From Anaerobacillus sp. (GTDB lineage Bacteria > Bacillota > Bacilli > Bacillales_H > Anaerobacillaceae), in NCBI GenBank assembly GCA_007120055.1, contig SKOL01000456.1:1-12505 (forward strand): a stretch of 12,505 nucleotides of DNA. Direction: 5' to 3'. Shown here piece after piece: positions 390 through 9,278 of the stretch (positions within the stretch are counted from its first letter, which is position 1; every line of letters starts with the position of its first letter). The position numbers were made by a program, and so were the translations under genes. The notes under the pieces are model-generated. The model saw only the letters and a program-made list of their open reading frames with translations. It did no database searches and was not told the DNA's origin.

Positions 390-875
390 TTAAAAGTTAA
401 TAACAATATTATTTAATGATGAAAAACCTTCTTTTAGTTCTTGAAAATAAACAAATGCTTCGATAATTACAGAATTTGTGTCATCTGGCTTAACGCACCT
501 TAAATCAAAATTTGAGAAAATTAGTTTTTCTTCCGGTAATAGTTTATTTTTGTTACTCGGTCTTAACCAATGTTCACCCGTTTCTTTCACTTTTTCTTTC
601 CAATTTTTATCTACGTACGTCCATTCTTCAGAAGTAGTTCCGTCAATAACTAGATCACCTTTTGGGATAAAATTGATTTTTCCGCCCAAGTTTCCAGCTT
701 CTGAAGGTTTGATGCGAATACAAATAACTGGAGTATTTAACGTTTCAGAACTGAAGTTTTTAATAATGAAATGCCCGAGAATTAGGAGTTCTTTCATTTC
801 TTCATTTAAATCAGGAAGAATAATAGAATAATTAAAAAAAGCATTTACATGACTATTTATGTTCTTATCAACCAC
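390..875 (-). CDS. Hypothetical protein, 161 aa, likely beta-rich
   Basis: It starts at GTG 875-873, with AAGGAGGG placed at good distance upstream, and ends with TAA at 390-392. There is no signal peptide or membrane segment. Alternating hydrophobic and polar residues (VICIRIKP, SVIIEAFVYF) suggest a beta-sandwich fold. The central part is rich in Trp, Lys and Glu (EEWTYV, GEHWLRP). I do not recognise a named family. Its neighbours on both sides are members of the Cys-rich spore-surface family, so a sporulation role is plausible but inferred only. I saw no sigma-K promoter directly upstream. A degenerate copy of a paralog promoter lies about 180 bases further up (1053-1083) and might drive it. 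Confidence 0.75.
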   Translation of the reverse strand: MVDKNINSHVNAFFNYSIILPDLNEEMKELLILGHFIIKNFSSETLNTPVICIRIKPSEAGNLGGKINFIPKGDLVIDGTTSEEWTYVDKNWKEKVKETGEHWLRPSNKNKLLPEEKLIFSNFDLRCVKPDDTNSVIIEAFVYFQELKEGFSSLNNIVINF

Positions 876-1241: not shown

Positions 1242-1952
1242 TTAACAATCATTCACTGGAAAAATATCAGGGCATTGCGGTGGCACGTATAGTGGCGGAC
1301 AATTAAAGGTAATTTCCCGCCGTGGCTGGCAGAAATCTGCAGCTACTTGTAATTTCACAATTGCTTCCATTTGGACGTTTTGGCAGAGGTTGATCGAAAC
1401 ATCGAGCTGTATAAACTCAGTATCTGAGCAGATAATCGTCGCATCACAATCGAAATCGGTAATTTCACATTGTAAAAATGTTCCTTCAGGAGCACATAAG
1501 AAAAATTTTTCAGTAACTGCAAAAGGTTGTGCGACAGATGTTAAATACTTTCCACGGGCATTAGAAACGCGAACGACAAAGTAACCTTTTTTCAATATTT
1601 TAACTTTTTGCAAAGTGATTTTTTCACCGTTAGGCATGAGAAAAATAATATTCTGGCGACCACCCCTTTGAGGGATTTCCGTACACAAAATTGCACTGGG
1701 AGCTAGTGGATTAACTGGGTTTCCTTTCTCATCAGTGATAATACATTCGATTGTTAACGGGCCATCTTCGTCCAGTTCGGCACAAGGATCGACAATAATA
1801 CCGGTTGGCCCTTCAAAATCTAAAGTTACTAAGCCGTTTACTCCAATAAAGCTTTGAACTGGAACATCAACTTGGCGTGTGACCCAGTCATAAACTTTCG
1901 GTACTTTTATACAAAGAGTATGTTGTGAACCTTTAAGCGCTCTCTGCTGCAA
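1242..1952 (-). CDS. Cys-rich spore-surface family protein, copy 2 (TTG start)
   Basis: The 236-aa product starts at TTG 1952-1950. A GTG three codons upstream (1961) touches the Shine-Dalgarno (GAAAGG) and so is unlikely to be used. The TTG sits about 9 bases from it and gives an N-terminus (MQQRALKGSQ, then LCIKVPKVYDWVTRQVDV) that aligns exactly with the ATG-started copy at the left edge. It has 13 cysteines, including the cluster QCEITDFDCDATIIC and a C-terminal Cys-Pro-rich end (NCPP, QCPD, final NDC). There is no signal peptide or membrane segment, which fits mother-cell assembly onto the spore. The family is not recognised by name. The KVYDWV element recalls SPOCS-type spore proteins, but I cannot confirm this. 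A structural, disulphide-linked surface role is inferred. Confidence 0.85.
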   Translation of the reverse strand: MQQRALKGSQHTLCIKVPKVYDWVTRQVDVPVQSFIGVNGLVTLDFEGPTGIIVDPCAELDEDGPLTIECIITDEKGNPVNPLAPSAILCTEIPQRGGRQNIIFLMPNGEKITLQKVKILKKGYFVVRVSNARGKYLTSVAQPFAVTEKFFLCAPEGTFLQCEITDFDCDATIICSDTEFIQLDVSINLCQNVQMEAIVKLQVAADFCQPRREITFNCPPLYVPPQCPDIFPVNDC

Positions 1953-1989
1953 AGTAATCACCCTTTCCTTTCTAAGTAGTTGTTTGCTT

Positions 1990-2106: not shown

Positions 2107-2826
2107 TTAATTACCAGGAAAAACTTCAGGGCATTGTGGTGGAAAACTTAATGGTGGACAATCAAATGGGATTTCAGGTCGTGGATGACAGAAATCTGCA
2201 GTGATTTCCAATTTCACAATTGCTTCCATTTGGACGTTTTGACACATATTAATGGAAACATCAATTTGACGGAACTCAGGATCTTTGTTTTCGTCTTTTC
2301 CGCAAATAATATTCGCGTCACATTCAAAATCGGTAATTTCACATTGTAAAAATGTTCCTTCAGGAGCACATAAGAAAAACTTTTCAGCCACAGCAAAAGG
2401 TTGTGGTTGAGATGTAAAAGATTCACCACGTGCGTTAGAGACGCGAACGACAAAATGTCCCTTTTTTAACACTTTAACCTTTTGCAGTGTAATTGTCTCA
2501 CCATCTGGTAAAGTGAAATTCGCTTTTTGGCGGCCACCAATTTGCGGAATTTCTGTACACAATATTGACTTAGGAGCTAACGGATCAACAGGATTGCCGT
2601 CTGCATCAGTAATAATACATTCAGCAGTGATTGCTCCGCCACCTGCTAATTCAAAGCAAGGGTCAATGCCGTTAGGAGTAGGACCTTCAAAACCAAGAGT
2701 AGTTAAGCCGGTGTCTCCTGTAAAACTTTGAACGGGAACGTCAACTTGACGTGTTACCCAATCATAAACTTTAGGAACTTTAATACAAAGTGTTTCTTGT
2801 GAACCTCTAATTGATTTGTGTTGCAA
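2107..2826 (-). CDS. Cys-rich spore-surface family protein, copy 3 (TTG start)
   Basis: The 239-aa product starts at TTG 2826-2824, eight bases after GAAAGGA. Two earlier starts are possible on paper. The one at 2883 lies upstream of the promoter -10, and the ATG at 2835 is fused to the Shine-Dalgarno, so both are unlikely. The N-terminus MQHKSIRGSQ aligns without gaps to the ATG-started copy. Twelve cysteines include LCAPEG, QCEITDFECDANIIC and the end FDCPP/QCPE. The C-terminal half is almost identical to that of the 2962-3696 copy (for example IICGKDENKDPEFRQID), which points to recent duplication or gene conversion. The central part (about residues 35-75) differs between copies. A cytosolic, mother-cell-expressed structural spore protein is inferred. 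The family is unnamed to me. Confidence 0.87.
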   Translation of the reverse strand: MQHKSIRGSQETLCIKVPKVYDWVTRQVDVPVQSFTGDTGLTTLGFEGPTPNGIDPCFELAGGGAITAECIITDADGNPVDPLAPKSILCTEIPQIGGRQKANFTLPDGETITLQKVKVLKKGHFVVRVSNARGESFTSQPQPFAVAEKFFLCAPEGTFLQCEITDFECDANIICGKDENKDPEFRQIDVSINMCQNVQMEAIVKLEITADFCHPRPEIPFDCPPLSFPPQCPEVFPGN

Positions 2827-2868
2827 AGTAATCATCCTTTCTAGATAGTTGTTAATAATTATCTGTTT

Positions 2869-2895
2869 TATAGTATGTGACAAACCTTTTTGTGT
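2869..2895 (-). promoter_or_regulatory. Sigma-K-like promoter for 2107-2826
   Basis: On the minus strand AC (2895-2894, within GCACAC), 16 bases, then CATACTATA (2877-2869). The flanking TAGACTAG before the -35 is shared with the promoter at 1990-2016. A start of transcription near 2862 leaves about 36 bases before the TTG start. Confidence 0.78.
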
Positions 2896-2961: not shown

Positions 2962-3696
2962 TTAACTATTCCCAGGAAAAATTTCTGGACATTGTGGTGG
3001 AAAGCTTAATGGTGGACAATCAAATGGAATTTCAGGTCGTGGATGACAGAAATCCGCAGTGATCTCCAATTTAACAGTTGCTTCCATTTGGACGTTTTGG
3101 CACATATTAATCGAAACATCGATTTGGCGGAATTCAGGATCTTTATTTTCGTCTTTTCCACAAATAATATTTGCATCACATTCAAAATCAGTAATTTCAC
3201 ATTGTAAAAATGTTCCTTCAGGAGCACATAAGAAGAATTTTTCAGCAACAGCAAAAGGCTGTGCTTGAGATGTTACATATTCCCCTAAAGCATTAGAGAC
3301 GCGAACGACAAAATGCCCTTTTTTCAATACTTTCACTTTTTGCAGTGTAATTGTTTCACCATCCGGCAAAGTGAAATTCGCATCTTGACGGCCACCAATT
3401 TGCGGGATTTCTGTGCATAAAATGGAATGAGGGGCTAACGGATCAACGGGATTACCATCTGCATCAGTAATAATACATTCAACAGATAGAGCCCCCCCAC
3501 CAGCTAAAAACTCACAAGGGTCAAGTGGGTCAGTGCCATTGGTACCGTTCGGAGCCTCAAAGTCTAATAGGCCTAAGCCAGTTTCTCCTGTAAAGCTTTG
3601 TACAGGAACGTCCACTTGACGAGTCACCCAGTCGTAAACTTTTGGAACTTTAATACATAAAGTTTCTTGACGACCTTGAATTGAATTTATTTCCAA
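2962..3696 (-). CDS. Cys-rich spore-surface family protein, copy 4 (TTG start)
   Basis: The 244-aa product starts at TTG 3696-3694, eight bases after GAAAGGA. The ATG at 3705 directly abuts the Shine-Dalgarno and is rejected. The N-terminus MEINSIQGRQ keeps the family spacing to LCIKVPKVYDWVTRQVDVPV. It is nearly the twin of the 2107-2826 protein from about residue 90 on. It differs by an insert, NGTNGTDPLDPCEF, in the variable central loop, where copy 3 has PNGIDPCFEL. It has 12 cysteines, all at family positions. Its promoter faces the plus-strand coiled-coil operon across a shared 370-base intergenic region, so both would be switched on in the same compartment. A structural spore-surface protein is inferred. 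Confidence 0.87.
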   Translation of the reverse strand: MEINSIQGRQETLCIKVPKVYDWVTRQVDVPVQSFTGETGLGLLDFEAPNGTNGTDPLDPCEFLAGGGALSVECIITDADGNPVDPLAPHSILCTEIPQIGGRQDANFTLPDGETITLQKVKVLKKGHFVVRVSNALGEYVTSQAQPFAVAEKFFLCAPEGTFLQCEITDFECDANIICGKDENKDPEFRQIDVSINMCQNVQMEATVKLEITADFCHPRPEIPFDCPPLSFPPQCPEIFPGNS

Positions 3697-3739
3697 AATA
3701 ATCATCCTTTCATTTGAAGTTGTGGTATAGCTACCAATG

Positions 3740-3766
3740 TATCCTATGAATTTTCAAAAAAAGTGT
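3740..3766 (-). promoter_or_regulatory. Sigma-K-like promoter for 2962-3696
   Basis: On the minus strand AC (3766-3765) lies at the end of an ACACACAC run and is followed after 16 bases by CATAGGATA (3748-3740), a full match to CATAnnnTA. The sequence around the -10 differs from the other two paralog promoters and matches the fossil element at 1053-1083 instead. Confidence 0.75.
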
Positions 3767-3924
3767 GTGTGTTTATCCTACTTTTGGGCTACTACCTATC
3801 TCTTTGAAATTATTTATTAGCCATGTTGATTAAATGACCGTTATGTAAAGTTATCGTTTAGAAGGATTTTCTTTTGGCGTGAAATTTAGGTGATCCATTA
3901 AAAATAATCGGCTTAATTAGGTAA

Positions 3925-3951
3925 CGAAAGAGTATTTGTTTCATATAGTAG
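3925..3951 (+). promoter_or_regulatory. Sigma-K-like promoter of the coiled-coil/JAMM operon
   Basis: AC (3925-3926), exactly 16 bases, then CATATAGTA (3943-3951), a full match to CATAnnnTA. It faces the coiled-coil gene and is back to back with the paralog promoter at 3740-3766. Transcription would begin near 3958. Confidence 0.7.
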
Positions 3952-4014
3952 TAGATATGGAATGTAAATTAGGCATTAGCGTATATATGTAATAAATAAG
4001 TAATAACGTTTGGA

Positions 4015-4034
4015 GGATATTTACTTAAATATCC
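4015..4034 (+). promoter_or_regulatory. Palindrome in the 5' leader
   Basis: GGATATTTA and TAAATATCC form a near-perfect dyad with a 2-base centre, between the promoter and the AAAAGGAGG site. As RNA it gives an 8-bp stem with an ACTT loop and no T run, so it is not a terminator. It could be a protein-binding site or an RNA-stabilising hairpin. Its function is unknown. Confidence 0.45.
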
Positions 4035-4059
4035 AAATTAGTAAAAGGAGGCTTCTATT

Positions 4060-6384
4060 ATGGGTTCGCAAACTCGAAATGATTTAAGTAATATTCAATT
4101 AAAGCAAAGATTGATTCACTTTAAATCAGAACTCGCACGTTATCAAATTAATGAAGGAAAGTATGATGAACTTGTAGAAAGGTTATCAAAAGAAAAAGCT
4201 GAATTGCAACGATCGTTGGAAGAACAAAGTTTAAAGTTAAATGAGTTGACAGAACAACATCGCGAACTTCTTCATGAAAAGGCTATTTTTCATGAGCACT
4301 TCGAAAAAGTAGCATCGGAAAATTCGGCACTTCAACTAAAGTTAGAAAAGTTTGAGTCTGATAAATTATCAATGAAAGAAAAACTTTTGACCAGTATTGA
4401 AAATAGTGAGCAAATAGCCTCACAATTACGGCAAGAAAATGAACAATTTGAAACAGAGAAAATAGATTTTCAAAAAAAGCTAGCTGACCAATCTCAAATA
4501 ATAAACGAATATAAAGACCAAATGAAAGAAAAAACAAAGGAAACAGATAGAATAATCAATGAAAATAAAGATTTAGTTCAAAAGTTAGCTAGTATTGAAG
4601 AAATTAACAAAGAACTAGAACAACAGCTTATGAGTACCTTGAAAGCTTCAGATCAACTCGAAAAAGAAATAATTGCAATTAAAGAAAATATTAACCAGGA
4701 TCAACTAAAGCTAATTGAAGAGATCGAAAGCTTGAAAGGTGAAAAGGATGAGGTAGCACAAAAGCTAGCTGACCAATCATCACTGTTCAACAACTTTGAA
4801 GGTGAGCTTGAGACTCATAAGCAACAAAACACAATATTAATTGAGCAAATAGAAGCCAAAGAAATGGAATTACGAAACATTGAAGAAAACTTCCAACAAC
4901 ATATCGATGAAAGTGCTGAGTTGAAAACGAAACTGCATCACGATAATGAAAAATATGAGAAAGATCAACTAGCTTTAAAACAGGAACTAGATAAGCTTAA
5001 AAAAATGTACCAAGATTTACAAAAAAGTGTTGATAAGAAAACAGCTGAAATTAATCAATTAGCACTTGAAAAGAAGGAATATGAACAAAAGAATGAAACG
5101 CTTACTGAAGAACTTGAACGTTTAAGTTCGGAAAAAAGTACCTTTAAGCAGCAGTTAGAAACGTATGAAATTGCTAATCAAGAATTGGAACAAGAAATTA
5201 ATGAATTTATTGAAAAAATTGGTGCAGATCAACTAGAAACAATTAGAGAATTAGAGGTTGCGAAAAAAGAAAATGAAAGGTTGCAAGATGTTTTAAAGCA
5301 TGAAAAAATAAAATTAAATGACTTTGAGGAATTAAAGGTAGCCACTCAAAAGGAGAAAGAGGAATTAGTAGTTCAATTAGAGGAACAAAAAATCGCTTTA
5401 GACGAATTGAAAAGTAAAGAAGAGTTATTAAATAAAAAAAGAGAAGAATTGGAAAATAAGTTAAATGAAAAATCTGATGCGAAACTTCAGTTAGAAAAAG
5501 AGCTAGAGCAACTAAAGGCTGACATTTCATCAAAAACTGAGAAAGTTGAAACTGCATCAAAAAGGGAAAGAGATAATTTCCTCAGTCAAATTGAGACTAT
5601 AGAGAAACAAAAAGAAGTGTTACAAAGTAAACTTAATTCTTCTCAGGCTACAAATAAGGAGTTAGAACAACGAATTTCCGCAACTAATCAAGAGTTGAAA
5701 ACAGTTCAATTGAGTTTAAAAGAGAAAACAAAAGAAAATACTAGGTTACAATCTGGGGTAGAAATACAAAATAATAAGGTGAAACAACTAGAAGAAACGA
5801 TCAAGAAGTATAACGCGGAAAAAGAGTTAATAGCAACTGAGAAAAAAGAATTAATGAAACAGGTTAAAGATTTGGACTATAACAATGCTGCATACGAGAG
5901 GACAATTTCTAAGTATGAAACAGTTATAAATCAAAACAATGGAGAAATAAAACAGTTAAAAGAATCTTTAAGTGAACTTAGAAAAAATATTAAAGATATA
6001 AAAAAAGAAAAATATCAATTTGAGCATCAAATAGAAAAAACGAATATAGAATTACAACATTTAAGAGACCAAAAGAAAGAATATTCACAGGATAAAGAGT
6101 TACTCATCAACTTACTAAGAAGTTTGCAAAAAGATGATCAAGTAAACCGTAGTCATCAAGAAACAATAAGAGCTGAACAACAAATTACAAATCCGAAATC
6201 AGATGGAAATAAAGATAATTCTTGGTTTTACAGAAACTTGAAACAGCAAACGAGAGGTAATGTTCAAGAAAAAGGAATACAACCCAATATAAATTTTAAT
6301 CCGTCGTCAGATTCATTTTTTTCGCTAACAAAGCAATTTCCGGAAATATTAAACAAAGCAAAAGAAGATGAAAAAGATCAATAA
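4060..6384 (+). CDS. Giant coiled-coil protein, 774 aa
   Basis: It starts at ATG 4060, eight bases after AAAAGGAGG. Residues of about 10-690 are almost entirely Glu, Lys, Gln, Leu and Asn in heptad-like order with no Pro, predicting one very long coiled coil (roughly 100 nm if continuous). Internal similarity suggests growth by duplication: QKLADQS recurs at about residues 139 and 234 (17 identical bases at 4477 and 4762), and DQLKLIEEIESLK near 214 resembles DQLETIRELEVAK near 390. The last 75 residues are not helical (SWFYRNLKQQ, NINFNPSSDSFFSL) and could be a docking tail. There is no signal peptide, membrane segment or ATPase motif, so SMC and Rad50 are excluded. Its stop overlaps the start of the JAMM gene. 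A fibrous spore-associated scaffold is inferred from the sigma-K-like promoter. Confidence 0.9.
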   Translation: MGSQTRNDLSNIQLKQRLIHFKSELARYQINEGKYDELVERLSKEKAELQRSLEEQSLKLNELTEQHRELLHEKAIFHEHFEKVASENSALQLKLEKFESDKLSMKEKLLTSIENSEQIASQLRQENEQFETEKIDFQKKLADQSQIINEYKDQMKEKTKETDRIINENKDLVQKLASIEEINKELEQQLMSTLKASDQLEKEIIAIKENINQDQLKLIEEIESLKGEKDEVAQKLADQSSLFNNFEGELETHKQQNTILIEQIEAKEMELRNIEENFQQHIDESAELKTKLHHDNEKYEKDQLALKQELDKLKKMYQDLQKSVDKKTAEINQLALEKKEYEQKNETLTEELERLSSEKSTFKQQLETYEIANQELEQEINEFIEKIGADQLETIRELEVAKKENERLQDVLKHEKIKLNDFEELKVATQKEKEELVVQLEEQKIALDELKSKEELLNKKREELENKLNEKSDAKLQLEKELEQLKADISSKTEKVETASKRERDNFLSQIETIEKQKEVLQSKLNSSQATNKELEQRISATNQELKTVQLSLKEKTKENTRLQSGVEIQNNKVKQLEETIKKYNAEKELIATEKKELMKQVKDLDYNNAAYERTISKYETVINQNNGEIKQLKESLSELRKNIKDIKKEKYQFEHQIEKTNIELQHLRDQKKEYSQDKELLINLLRSLQKDDQVNRSHQETIRAEQQITNPKSDGNKDNSWFYRNLKQQTRGNVQEKGIQPNINFNPSSDSFFSLTKQFPEILNKAKEDEKDQ

Positions 6385-6797
6385 TGCAGCTAGAAAACAT
6401 TTATACAATTAAGGAAGAGGTTTATCTTTCAATGATTAACTTCTGTAAACAGGGACTGCCGTTAGAGGTATGTGGTTTAATATCTGGACCTGAAAACTTC
6501 GGTGCAACACTATGGGCGCTGGAAAACCCTACAAATAGTCATTCTCGATTTTCCATTTCAGAACAAACGATAGCTTCGGTAATGGAACAAGTAGAAAAAA
6601 AAGGAGAGAAAATTACCGGTGTTTTTCACTCTCATCCAACAACAGCAGCATACCCTTCAAGATCAGATATAAGGAACAATCCTAACTCGAATTTAGCTTA
6701 TTTAATTGTTTCTTTTAAACGAAGCCAACCGACAGTAGGATGCTTTAAAATTATCAATCGTGAAAAAGTAGTCCAACTAAAGTTAAATATCAAATAA
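6384..6797 (+). CDS. JAMM (MPN+) zinc metallopeptidase, 137 aa
   Basis: The stop of the coiled-coil gene and this ATG share one base (TAATG), implying translational coupling; there is no strong ribosome binding site of its own. The complete JAMM signature is present: Glu28 (PLEVCGLISG), His82 and His84 (GVFHSHP), Ser92 and Asp95, with the canonical seven residues between the HxH and the Ser. The enzyme should bind zinc and cleave an isopeptide or peptide bond. Known family roles include ubiquitin removal in eukaryotes and processing of ubiquitin-like sulfur carriers in bacteria. The single domain spans the whole protein. No ubiquitin-like, ThiF/E1-like or cysteine-synthase gene is visible nearby, so the usual sulfur-carrier context is missing. 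The coiled-coil partner is the obvious candidate substrate or anchor (inference). Confidence 0.9.
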   Translation: MQLENIYTIKEEVYLSMINFCKQGLPLEVCGLISGPENFGATLWALENPTNSHSRFSISEQTIASVMEQVEKKGEKITGVFHSHPTTAAYPSRSDIRNNPNSNLAYLIVSFKRSQPTVGCFKIINREKVVQLKLNIK

Positions 6798-6883: not shown

Positions 6884-7066
6884 ATGCCATTTCGAAATAA
6901 AAAAATTCATAAAGGTACTAATACTACAAGTCAAAAAACACCAACATACGTAGCTAAGAAAAGTACTCCAATAACAAAAGTGTATGCTTCAACAACAAAA
7001 CCATCTTACCCGCGTCCTACTTATGGTGGGTGTGGTGTTTGCGGCAAGAAGCTGCCAAAGCGTTAA
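6884..7066 (+). CDS. Small basic protein, 60 aa, Cys-Gly C-terminus
   Basis: It starts at ATG 6884 (MPFRNKK), six bases after GGAGTG. The GTG at 6875 overlaps the Shine-Dalgarno and is rejected. The product is Lys/Thr-rich and Pro-containing (about residues 5-48) and probably disordered, ending YGGCGVCGKKLPKR. The two cysteines are three apart (CGVC) and could bind metal as half of a zinc knuckle or cross-link by disulphide. It has no membrane segment and no recognised family. Small basic Tyr/Lys/Cys proteins are common in spore coats, and the upstream operon has a sigma-K-like promoter, so a coat role is plausible but inferred. Its stop codon is already inside the left arm of the hairpin at 7065-7154. 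Confidence 0.7.
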   Translation: MPFRNKKIHKGTNTTSQKTPTYVAKKSTPITKVYASTTKPSYPRPTYGGCGVCGKKLPKR

Positions 7067-7456: not shown

Positions 7457-8566
7457 TTATTCTGTCTCTTTAACCGCCTTATCAATAATTTCTTTTAAGT
7501 TAAACTTTTTTTTAGGTTTATCCTTATCATCGTCTCTTTCTTTATCTATTTCTCTATCTCTATCTCTATCTTTATCTTTGCGTTTGTCTTTTTTTCTATC
7601 TCTATCTTTTTTCTTATCTTTCTCCTTTTTCTTTCTTTTTTTCTTATCTTTCTCCTTATCCTTATCTTCAACTTTAACTTTAACTTTAACTTTGTGCTTG
7701 TGTTTATGCTTGTGCTTGCACTTATCTTTCTTTTTGTCTTTATCCATATCTTTCTCCTTCTTCTCTTTTAACATCGAGACTTGTTGGTTTTGTAAAACCT
7801 TTAAAGAAATTAGTATGACCATTTTTTCTTTTAATGTGCGGAAGACCTTTTCCGTTTGGCAGCCTTTTTTTAATGGACGTTCGTCTAAAATAATATCCAG
7901 TTCAATGACAGAAGATTTTACTAATTCACAGAAAATTTTTTCATTTAGGAATTCGGCGTTAATGTTACCGAATTCTCGTTGATCACGACTTAATTTTTTA
8001 TCAGGGTCTAAAAATTCCAGTTCAGCTTTAGGATTAGGATTTTGGAATTCTATAGATGGGGTAATCTCCTTTGCTAGTTCAACTTCTGTTATACAGTTAA
8101 ATGGAACTTTTACAGTTGTATGGCGAATATTTCCATTGATTTTTTGTGGATTTCCATAATCCGCCGTTGCATATTCAATATTTTTTCGAACGAAACCTGC
8201 TAAAAAAAGCTTAATGGTAGGCTTTTTACAGTGCGAAAATGAAGGCAAAACATCACATTGTGTTAGTTCTACATTTTTACGTATGCGTTTAATTTCAATT
8301 GCGGGCTCCTCAAGTTTTACAAATGATTCGAGATTGATTTCGATCTTTGGTTCAGCAAGTACAACAGGTACTTTCACTGTTAACGATTGGTGTTTCTCTT
8401 CTTTAAATAATTTCGTACTTAAACAATCTGATACACTCACGGATTCCATTATCGATTGTTTTTTACAAATATCCTTTCTAGCTTTTGGATCAACAACTAC
8501 TCGCTGAATCGTTTTGGGCGGAGGGTTTAAAAGATCTCTTCCGTCCCAAGGGTGCTGTGTATTCAA
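7457..8566 (-). CDS. SPOCS-like spore-surface protein with Lys/Asp/His tail, 369 aa
   Basis: It starts at TTG 8566-8564, nine bases after AGGAGG; no ATG or GTG fits better. Residues of about 45-160 (TVKVPVVLAEPKIEI, IKRIRKNVELTQCDV, LFLAGFVRKNIEYAT, TTVKVPFNCITEVEL) resemble the SPOCS/DUF3794-type domain of spore coat and exosporium proteins (CsxC-like proteins); this rests on remembered motif similarity. Residues 160-265 form a second, less clear region that is also represented in the fragment at 7174-7293. Residues 265-355 are low complexity: Lys-Asp and Lys-Arg stretches, then CKHKHKHKHK and VKVKVKV dipeptide repeats (about 282-299), then more KD/RD. The last part (KFNLKEIIDKAVKETE) may be helical. 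There is no signal peptide. The His-Lys run could bind metal. Confidence 0.85.
   Translation of the reverse strand: MNTQHPWDGRDLLNPPPKTIQRVVVDPKARKDICKKQSIMESVSVSDCLSTKLFKEEKHQSLTVKVPVVLAEPKIEINLESFVKLEEPAIEIKRIRKNVELTQCDVLPSFSHCKKPTIKLFLAGFVRKNIEYATADYGNPQKINGNIRHTTVKVPFNCITEVELAKEITPSIEFQNPNPKAELEFLDPDKKLSRDQREFGNINAEFLNEKIFCELVKSSVIELDIILDERPLKKGCQTEKVFRTLKEKMVILISLKVLQNQQVSMLKEKKEKDMDKDKKKDKCKHKHKHKHKVKVKVKVEDKDKEKDKKKRKKKEKDKKKDRDRKKDKRKDKDRDRDREIDKERDDDKDKPKKKFNLKEIIDKAVKETE
7538..7740 (-). repeat. Coding microsatellites in the tail of 7457-8566
   Basis: Four perfect AACTTT units (7670-7693, plus-strand view) encode Val-Lys repeats. The adjacent GTGCTT-like units (7694-7720) encode His-Lys repeats. 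A long TCTATC/TCTTTATC pyrimidine tract (7538-7650) encodes Lys-Asp and Arg-Asp. Units of 3 or 6 keep the frame when copy number changes, so tail length may vary between strains. Confidence 0.8.
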
Positions 8567-8891: not shown

Positions 8892-9278
8892 TTAGTTTTC
8901 GACATCATCGTCTTCGACATCGTCATCATCATCTTCTACATCATCATCATCATCATCATCGTCGTCTTCCTTAGTTTCTATCTTAAATTCAACTTCAGTG
9001 CCATCAGAAAACACGACTTCAATATCTGCTTCAATAAACGAATCATTTCCTAATACTGCAAGTACGTTTTCAGAGATCTCTTCCTCACTCATATCAGAAG
9101 TGATCGTTAACTTATCGATAAAGCTAGAATTAAATACTTTCCCATCATTGTTAACCTCTTCTTCTCCGTCTGCTGTCTTCTTATAAATTTTTACCTCTTC
9201 TTCATCATAATGAAGTTCGAATGCTAAATCATCAGCTAATTCGAGTTCGATCGTAAGCTCTTGAATTTCTTTGCTCAT
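8892..9278 (-). CDS. YusW-like domain protein with poly-Asp tail, 128 aa
   Basis: It starts at ATG 9278-9276 with AAGGAGG upstream. Residues of about 8-103 resemble the YusW-like domain: a beta-rich opening (LAFELHYDEEEVKIYKK), a helix-type centre (FIDKLTITSDMSEEEISENVLAVLG) and the closing strand pattern IEVVFSDGTEVEFKIE. Family members are often lipoproteins, but no signal peptide or lipobox is present here, so this one is cytosolic. Residues 104-128 are a tail of Asp with a few Val and Glu, encoded by GAT/GAC triplet repeats. The protein is strongly acidic. It lies next to the Lys-rich tailed protein and shares its direction, but a terminator separates the two. The domain's function is not established. 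Confidence 0.8.
   Translation of the reverse strand: MSKEIQELTIELELADDLAFELHYDEEEVKIYKKTADGEEEVNNDGKVFNSSFIDKLTITSDMSEEEISENVLAVLGNDSFIEADIEVVFSDGTEVEFKIETKEDDDDDDDDDVEDDDDDVEDDDVEN
8899..8967 (-). repeat. GAT/GAC triplet repeat encoding poly-Asp
   Basis: Runs of ATC and GTC triplets on the plus strand (with TCATCATCATC as the longest pure part) encode the Asp-rich end of the YusW-like protein. Slippage would alter tail length without breaking the frame. Confidence 0.75.

Follow-up and report, generated by a model that had tools for sequence, protein, structure and literature searches.

On a 12,505-nucleotide stretch of DNA from Anaerobacillus sp. (contig SKOL01000456.1 of assembly GCA_007120055.1; hereafter the window), the gene for a giant coiled-coil protein is followed by that for a JAMM/M67 metallopeptidase, and this pair belongs to a real, conserved gene cassette. 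The cassette also includes members of the BMQ_0737 family of spore coat proteins, an uncharacterised family here called F2 and a small basic protein with a cysteine pair near its C-terminus (the Cys-tail protein). Its promoters and its BMQ_0737 member suggest that the cassette serves the outer spore coat in late sporulation. It is proposed, with about an even chance of being right, that the JAMM trims coat proteins of its own cassette as the outermost layer assembles; the likeliest substrates would be the small Cys-tail protein or the tail of the coil.

The window is a spore-coat gene cluster with BMQ_0737-family genes, CsxC and CotS, from a bacterium near Anaerobacillus: its JAMM protein shares 61% identity with that of A. 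alkalilacustris and 62% with that of A. alkalidiazotrophicus. From left to right, F2 and three BMQ_0737-family genes on the minus strand are followed by the divergent coil, JAMM and small basic genes on the plus strand:

390..875, minus strand: F2, uncharacterised cassette protein, predicted Ig-like (immunoglobulin-like) beta sandwich (AlphaFold2, predicted local distance difference test (pLDDT) 86)
1242..1961, minus strand: BMQ_0737-family morphogenetic spore coat protein (NF052457, 235.7 bits)
2107..2883, minus strand: BMQ_0737-family morphogenetic spore coat protein (NF052457, 247 bits, cut-off 71)
2962..3705, minus strand: spore coat gene of the BMQ_0737 family, divergent from the coil gene (assigned by its place in the sequence cluster of 2107..2883 and 1242..1961)
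3924..3950, plus strand: sigma-K-like promoter AC-N16-CATATAGTA (no mismatches; same box in locus L002)
4060..6384, plus strand: giant coiled-coil protein, 774 amino acids (aa), type A (heptad z 10.1)
4093..4140, plus strand: conserved coil head, IQLKQRLIHFKSELAR region (head profile)
6214..6339, plus strand: conserved non-coil tail of the coil, SWFYRNLKQQ ... SFFSLTKQF (tails compared side by side)
6384..6797, plus strand: JAMM/M67 metallopeptidase, single domain, 137 aa (Prok-JAB PF14464 at 8.5e-17; AlphaFold2 pLDDT 88; Foldseek to 2kks and 5lda)
6465..6668, plus strand: JAMM catalytic residues Glu28 (6465-6467), His82 (6627-6629), His84 (6633-6635), Ser92 (6657-6659) and Asp95 (6666-6668)
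6884..7066, plus strand: small basic protein, 60 aa, C-terminus GGCGVCGKKLPKR (ATG at 6884, GGAG upstream; relatives aligned)

A cassette conserved beyond the window

The cassette was followed over 61 JAMM loci, namely the window, L001 (a Cytobacillus spongiae plasmid record), L002-L020 and 40 genome regions, one genome giving two; some of the loci are close kin and the counts are therefore not independent. A search of genome contigs with an alignment of relatives gave 36 loci, of which L002-L020 (19 loci from Bacillaceae and Aneurinibacillus) were used and 17 (L021-L037, from other groups, at 27-38% identity) were left out. Gene families across the loci were defined by single-linkage clustering of all open reading frames (ORFs). 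JAMM-positive genomes at an expectation value (E) of at most 1e-10 numbered 33 of 193 in one sample and 38 of 299 in a second, nearly all with a single match, and make 70 distinct genomes, G037 being common to both. The 61 loci draw on 28 of the 33 and 29 of the 38, seven of these being identical in sequence to loci already numbered; outside them stand G045, G046, G054, G056 and G057 of the first sample (G057 was examined later) and G236, G275, G282, G350, G363, G375, G442, G472 and G483 of the second. In two further family searches the JAMM turned up in 3 genomes out of 4 and in 3 out of 24. Another 86 JAMM relatives came from viral contigs, 80 of which were kept (L038-L117), with 26-48% identity over part of the domain only, and a plasmid collection gave three JAMM matches (31-33%) and none to the coil. 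A protein search returned no coil homologue among 7,996 scored candidates at E of at most 1e-3.

The BMQ_0737 family occurs in 57 of the 61 loci, always within 5.3 kb of the JAMM gene; the contig of L014 ends close to the JAMM gene. NCBIfam confirms the label (NF052457) for two proteins of the window and for one each in L001 (79 bits) and L004. Every JAMM-positive genome of the two samples (33/33 and 38/38) is also positive for BMQ_0737, as are 3 of 160 and 108 of 261 JAMM-negative genomes, and no match to the family was found in 14 well-known control genomes, B. subtilis among them.

F2 is present in 50 loci, within 7.4 kb of the JAMM gene, and consists of a domain of about 160 aa which stands alone or follows a variable N-terminal region of some 240 aa. 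It has no match in Pfam or NCBIfam, and its model has only weak structural matches (template modelling (TM) score by query length below 0.5). The idea that F2 could be ubiquitin-like was rejected on its predicted Ig-like beta-sandwich fold, which speaks against a hidden ubiquitin.

The small basic gene with the Cys tail is a same-strand neighbour of JAMM in 55 of the 61 loci, directly upstream in 29 and within 376 bases downstream in 26, the window being one of the latter. Its product measures 29-112 aa when the longest start is read and ends near a cysteine pair (GGCGCG, GCCGR, RCCGR and variants); two cysteines are invariant in an alignment (A7) of 13 small proteins from loci with the window's type of coil, type A. 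A strict pattern detected the gene in 36 loci and a relaxed pattern in 45, the other ten being found by eye or by looser rules, and near JAMM the relaxed pattern gave 47 hits on the JAMM strand versus 2 on the opposite strand. A further Cys-tail gene with an RRRTCCGR end (19685-19891 of L251) lies in a BMQ_0737-positive genome without a JAMM match (G013), which suggests a relic or a use of the small protein that is free of JAMM.

The coil itself is much as first described, a 774-aa and nearly pure coiled coil; residues 1-690 contain no Pro, Trp or Cys and about the last 80 residues form a non-coil tail. Its mean best heptad contrast is 0.419, versus 0.266 ± 0.017 (maximum 0.310) in 200 shuffles of the same composition, which places it about nine standard deviations above them; this score was relied on because a cruder one was unspecific (0.90 versus 0.62 ± 0.09 in shuffles). 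The original prediction would have been overturned by a pairing with JAMM that occurs in this genome only, but the pairing holds well beyond it. Directly upstream of JAMM there is a protein of at least 150 aa outside the BMQ_0737 family in 50 of the 61 loci, and a coil-like protein (heptad z of at least 3) in 45, with z of at least 4 in 37, a value that is reached by 1 of 75 control proteins from five other families. The remaining 16 loci comprise 11 with a BMQ_0737 protein or nothing of at least 150 aa in this position and five below z 3; L006 is scored as a miss owing to a sequence gap that splits its coil. In L002-L020 a coil of 622-1286 aa holds the same position, with the exception of 316 aa in L013 and the split coil of L006.

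Two types of coil can be distinguished. Type A is mostly 622-1286 aa long with the head (h)QLQQKhIHxxSEL and the tail WFxR..FFxL, and type B is mostly 300-500 aa long with (V/M)FNPFKY or similar at the C-terminus. A profile of the head finds matches at E of at most 0.05 in 43 of the 61 loci (its 15 seeds included), and in type B loci the head motif mostly sits on a separate nearby coil of 240-540 aa. L013 contains a second coil followed by a small gene and no JAMM (3481-6147), about 4 kb before its coil-JAMM pair, and the cassette can thus be split and duplicated.

The sigma-K-like promoter that the original prediction placed ahead of the coil is supported by its sequence: AC (3924-3925) and CATATAGTA (3942-3950) are separated by 16 bases, and only one in 300 dinucleotide shuffles of the upstream region contains a site as good. 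In the A. alkalilacustris locus (L002) the CATATAGTA box is identical and AC again stands 16 bases ahead of it. A perfect AC-N15/17-CATANNNTA site lies upstream of 55 of 77 BMQ_0737 genes, where shuffles lead one to expect 1.28, and upstream of 14 of 294 other ORFs of at least 220 aa. Among 19 coil genes the AC-N16 site is perfect in eight (the window, L002, L009, L011, L013, L016, L019 and L020) and has one mismatch in three; in the Cytobacillus-like group it lies 48-52 bases ahead of the coil start. On the strength of these sigma-K-type sequences, expression of the cassette would fall late in the mother cell.

The JAMM enzyme and its candidate substrates

The catalytic site claimed for the window JAMM is complete. 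The protein carries the Glu ... His-x-His-x7-Ser-x2-Asp motif; an alignment of 62 sequences shows no change at Glu28, His82, His84 or Asp95 and retains Ser92 in at least 90% of them. Its predicted model has an MPN/JAB fold (pLDDT 88.3) and is matched best by 2kks (Foldseek E 5.8e-12), then by PfJAMM1 alone and with SAMP2, with TM scores of 0.83-0.85 by query length. It is predicted to be a zinc-dependent protein-cutting enzyme. That the JAMM is instead a structural or zinc-binding component of the coat without peptidase work would suit its small size and coat setting, as would the interrupted frame of one relative (G057), yet the Glu, both His and the Asp stay invariant while identity to the window falls to 23%, and this explanation is very improbable. 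The phage tail JAMM proteins have a fused NlpC/P60 domain; this identity was rejected for the 137-aa protein, which matches only JAB families. A single stop lies within the JAMM match of each of two further genomes, a TAG in L217 (G494) and a TAA in G236.

We infer that the JAMM is active, and that its substrate and its place of work lie within the cassette and the layer it serves. In the proposed mechanism, a small amount of JAMM would be made by ribosomes that have just finished a structural gene, which is the coil gene in loci of the window's type and the small gene in those of the other; in the window this would be simple coupling of stop and start at TAATG. Present at a low level, the enzyme would go on to cut peptide or isopeptide bonds, either in the small protein with its lysines and cysteines or in the tail of the coil, and these cuts may determine the moment at which such components become fixed in the BMQ_0737 layer.

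Several observations weigh against this proposal. The frequent occurrence of BMQ_0737 without JAMM (the 108 of 261 genomes) means that JAMM is not needed for the family in general. A small gene beside JAMM is missing from six of the 61 loci, for which L013 has one about 4 kb off and L195, L200, L202, L204 and L214 have none that could be found. The tails of the small proteins are not uniformly Gly-Gly (GGCGCG, KGCCGR, KRCCGR, SDCCK), so that a rule of cleavage at Gly-Gly would cover only some of them. A perfect sigma-K site precedes only one of 50 F2 genes, and eight of the 19 coil genes have two or three mismatches in theirs, no better than shuffles. Lastly, the JAMM frame of L252 (G057) is interrupted in mid-domain, although intact relatives exist.

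The original prediction offered, as a possible reading of the pair, a spore fibre trimmed or uncoupled by its own peptidase. Of this reading the conserved pairing, the sporulation setting and the sigma-K-like promoter have stood, and the coil as the key partner has not. With no coil-like protein upstream in 16 of the 61 loci, a Cys-tail neighbour in 55 and BMQ_0737 in all 70 JAMM-positive genomes, the coil is better seen as one structural member of a larger cassette. That the conserved coil tail is nevertheless what JAMM cuts is unlikely. The coil-like protein directly upstream in 45 loci, the conservation of the tail motifs (WFxR..FFxL or FNPFKY) and the direct coupling in the window would all be expected of a coil substrate; against it, besides the 16 loci, the tails differ between the two coil types, and the second coil of L013, beside a small gene, keeps its tail with no JAMM adjacent.

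A different substrate would be required if the JAMM were an ordinary hydrolase of sulfur carriers or ubiquitin-like proteins, of the Mec, QbsD or desampylase kind, which merely sits in a coat operon while its carrier is encoded elsewhere. The nearest curated model is indeed a desampylase, though far under its cut-off (52.5 of 130 bits), PfJAMM1 with SAMP2 is a close structural match, and ThiS-like carriers occur in all 14 genomes tested. ThiS/MoaD-like proteins (PF02597) gave 33 matches in these genomes, 30 of them with a locus, of which 29 were resolved and all 29 end exactly in GG by a pattern that accepts GG within 16 residues of the end, so that a longer-tailed carrier would show up only as a match that the pattern does not resolve. 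In these 29 of 30 carriers the bare GG leaves no tail for JAMM to remove, and a sulfur carrier encoded elsewhere, which the original prediction had named as a finding that would overturn it, did not emerge as the target. JAMM is moreover linked to coat genes and confined to BMQ_0737-positive genomes in both samples, even though carriers are present in 14 of 14. A carrier hydrolase is therefore improbable, and trimming of the cassette's own proteins is preferred. Consistent with the earlier remark that no ubiquitin-like or E1-like gene is nearby, no ubiquitin-like, E1, E2 or beta-grasp family was found among the window proteins scanned, the other loci not having been scanned for them.

Starts and reading frames of the JAMM genes

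As predicted, coil and JAMM overlap by one base: the JAMM ORF (6384-6797) and the coil share base 6384 within TAATG, in different frames. With its own ATG, the window JAMM needs no recoding. For all 61 JAMM genes, an ATG, GTG or TTG of the open frame was accepted as a start if it lay no later than codon -22, counted from the catalytic Glu, so that beta strand 1 (residues 6-9 of the model) is kept. Eight of the 61 JAMM genes have their own start with a Shine-Dalgarno-like stretch, inside the small gene in four of them (L177, L210, L212, L215), and 28 have a start within 45 codons and no such stretch. The start lies only inside strand 1 in five and only far upstream in seven, and 13 genes are without any ATG, GTG or TTG up to codon -19. 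A similar pattern applied to the 29 upstream small genes finds a start accompanied by a Shine-Dalgarno-like stretch in 28.

In the 29 loci with the small gene upstream, JAMM is at +1 in 26, in frame in three and at +2 in none. In the 26 loci, the small gene's last Cys codon and the catalytic Glu are separated by one of eight distances (79, 85, 88, 91, 94, 97, 100 and 103), all of which are 1 modulo 3, and in the other three (L189, L190, L198) the distance is 87 or 96 and a single TGA separates small gene and JAMM in one frame. For the 25 directly upstream coils with a readable tail motif, JAMM is at +1 in 17, at +2 in five and in frame in three; all eight that are not at +1 have their own JAMM start, the window (+2) and L002 (in frame) among them. 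Only in L004, L005, L008 and L010 does the coil end in CCC TGA with JAMM at +1 and no near start. A frame kept between two ORFs, the second of them start-less, is thus a feature of relatives with the small gene upstream. Slippage of the transcript at an A-run was rejected as a common cause because the longest run varies from 2 to 8 in 13 loci with none in common, and so was RF2-like slippage at the stop, because the codons ahead of it differ among loci and none is shared.

Where the small gene is upstream, JAMM expression would be linked to the frame; the pattern fits what recoding would leave behind, though no single slip site fits. In many relatives the JAMM, with no start of its own, may be a recoded passenger, made only by a +1 shift or by TGA readthrough where a structural coat gene ends. 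A minor fraction of the Cys-tail protein or giant coil would then have the peptidase fused to its C-terminus and would bring it into the outermost layer of the spore. This is regarded as possible but with the balance tilted against it. If true, recoding would build the ratio of a building block to its built-in peptidase in the spore coat, and if the frame linkage reflects real recoding, it would be a widespread case in a structural gene cluster.

A somewhat stronger candidate, although it too falls just short of even chances, is that simple termination and reinitiation, without recoding, lets the start-less JAMM genes begin at a near-cognate AUA or AUU where the first beta strand ends. At position -19 from the catalytic Glu, 18 of 35 Ile codons are ATA, compared with 188 of 699 elsewhere in the domain (Fisher p 0.003, without correction for kinship). 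In L006 (beside an A-run) and L195, both of them start-less and preceded by a coil, JAMM is at +2 and not +1, which fits near-cognate starts and contradicts a single frame rule. Reinitiation should, however, be indifferent to frame, yet 26 of 29 loci are at +1 over the eight spacings, with three in frame behind TGA and none at +2; a start at -19 would also lose most of beta strand 1, and L185, L196, L203, L207 and L209 have no start-like codon there.

Neighbouring genes and relation to known systems

To the right of the small gene lie a CsxC-family gene and a weak YusW-like acidic protein on the minus strand, then a CotS-family kinase and a GT4-like glycosyltransferase on the plus strand. The CsxC-family protein (7457-8566; NF045794, 220 bits) has a long Lys/Asp repeat tail and its sequence cluster occurs in 15 of the 61 loci; the YusW match (8892-9278) is just under its cut-off and the protein has an Asp-rich tail. 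At the left end, an ORF on the minus strand (2-217) runs off the window and by eye resembles another gene of the BMQ_0737 family (CIRVDKIYDWVTRQVD). Searches of the window for tRNAs and for Rfam families above cut-off found none.

BMQ_0737 of Bacillus (Priestia) megaterium belongs to the outermost layer of the spore, where the available part of one account places BMQ_0737-GFP among the outermost proteins by GFP fusions and antisera (PMC4656864); a second article (PMC4674009) cites the BMQ_0737 paper of 2014. The coat gene of the cassette is of the same family, at up to 247 bits; JAMM, coil, F2 and Cys-tail protein do not appear in the available part of that account. In keeping with the original statement that no such system had been described, no description was found in the literature searched on JAMM/M67 and spore coat or exosporium, which was mostly without subscription papers. 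In fold (predicted here), motif and size the window JAMM resembles two single-domain JAMMs, DSY2949 (2kks) and PfJAMM1 (5ld9/5lda). The structure of PfJAMM1 was solved with the ubiquitin-like SAMP2 and 2kks is listed as uncharacterised, whereas here the JAMM lies in a coat cluster and no ubiquitin-like partner was found.

The bacterial ubiquitin-like conjugation operons carry E1, E2 and JAMM, and resemble the cassette in that a JAMM shares an operon with small partner proteins. They differ from it in that the window proteins scanned include no E1, E2 or beta-grasp protein and F2 is predicted to be an Ig-like sandwich. The JAMM peptidases of the Mec/CysO and QbsD systems cut at Gly-Gly-Cys or trim tails, and many small proteins of type A have a Gly-Gly-Cys close to the end that is reminiscent of such a site, but the small protein is by sequence unlike a beta-grasp carrier and many tails are without Gly-Gly. 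Most of what is known of JAMM enzymes concerns the cutting of ubiquitin-like tags; across dozens of genomes the JAMM described here is tied to a family of proteins from the outermost layer of the spore, and no ubiquitin-like tag was found in the window. If it works on coat proteins it would offer an enzymatic handle on the assembly of the outermost layer or exosporium.

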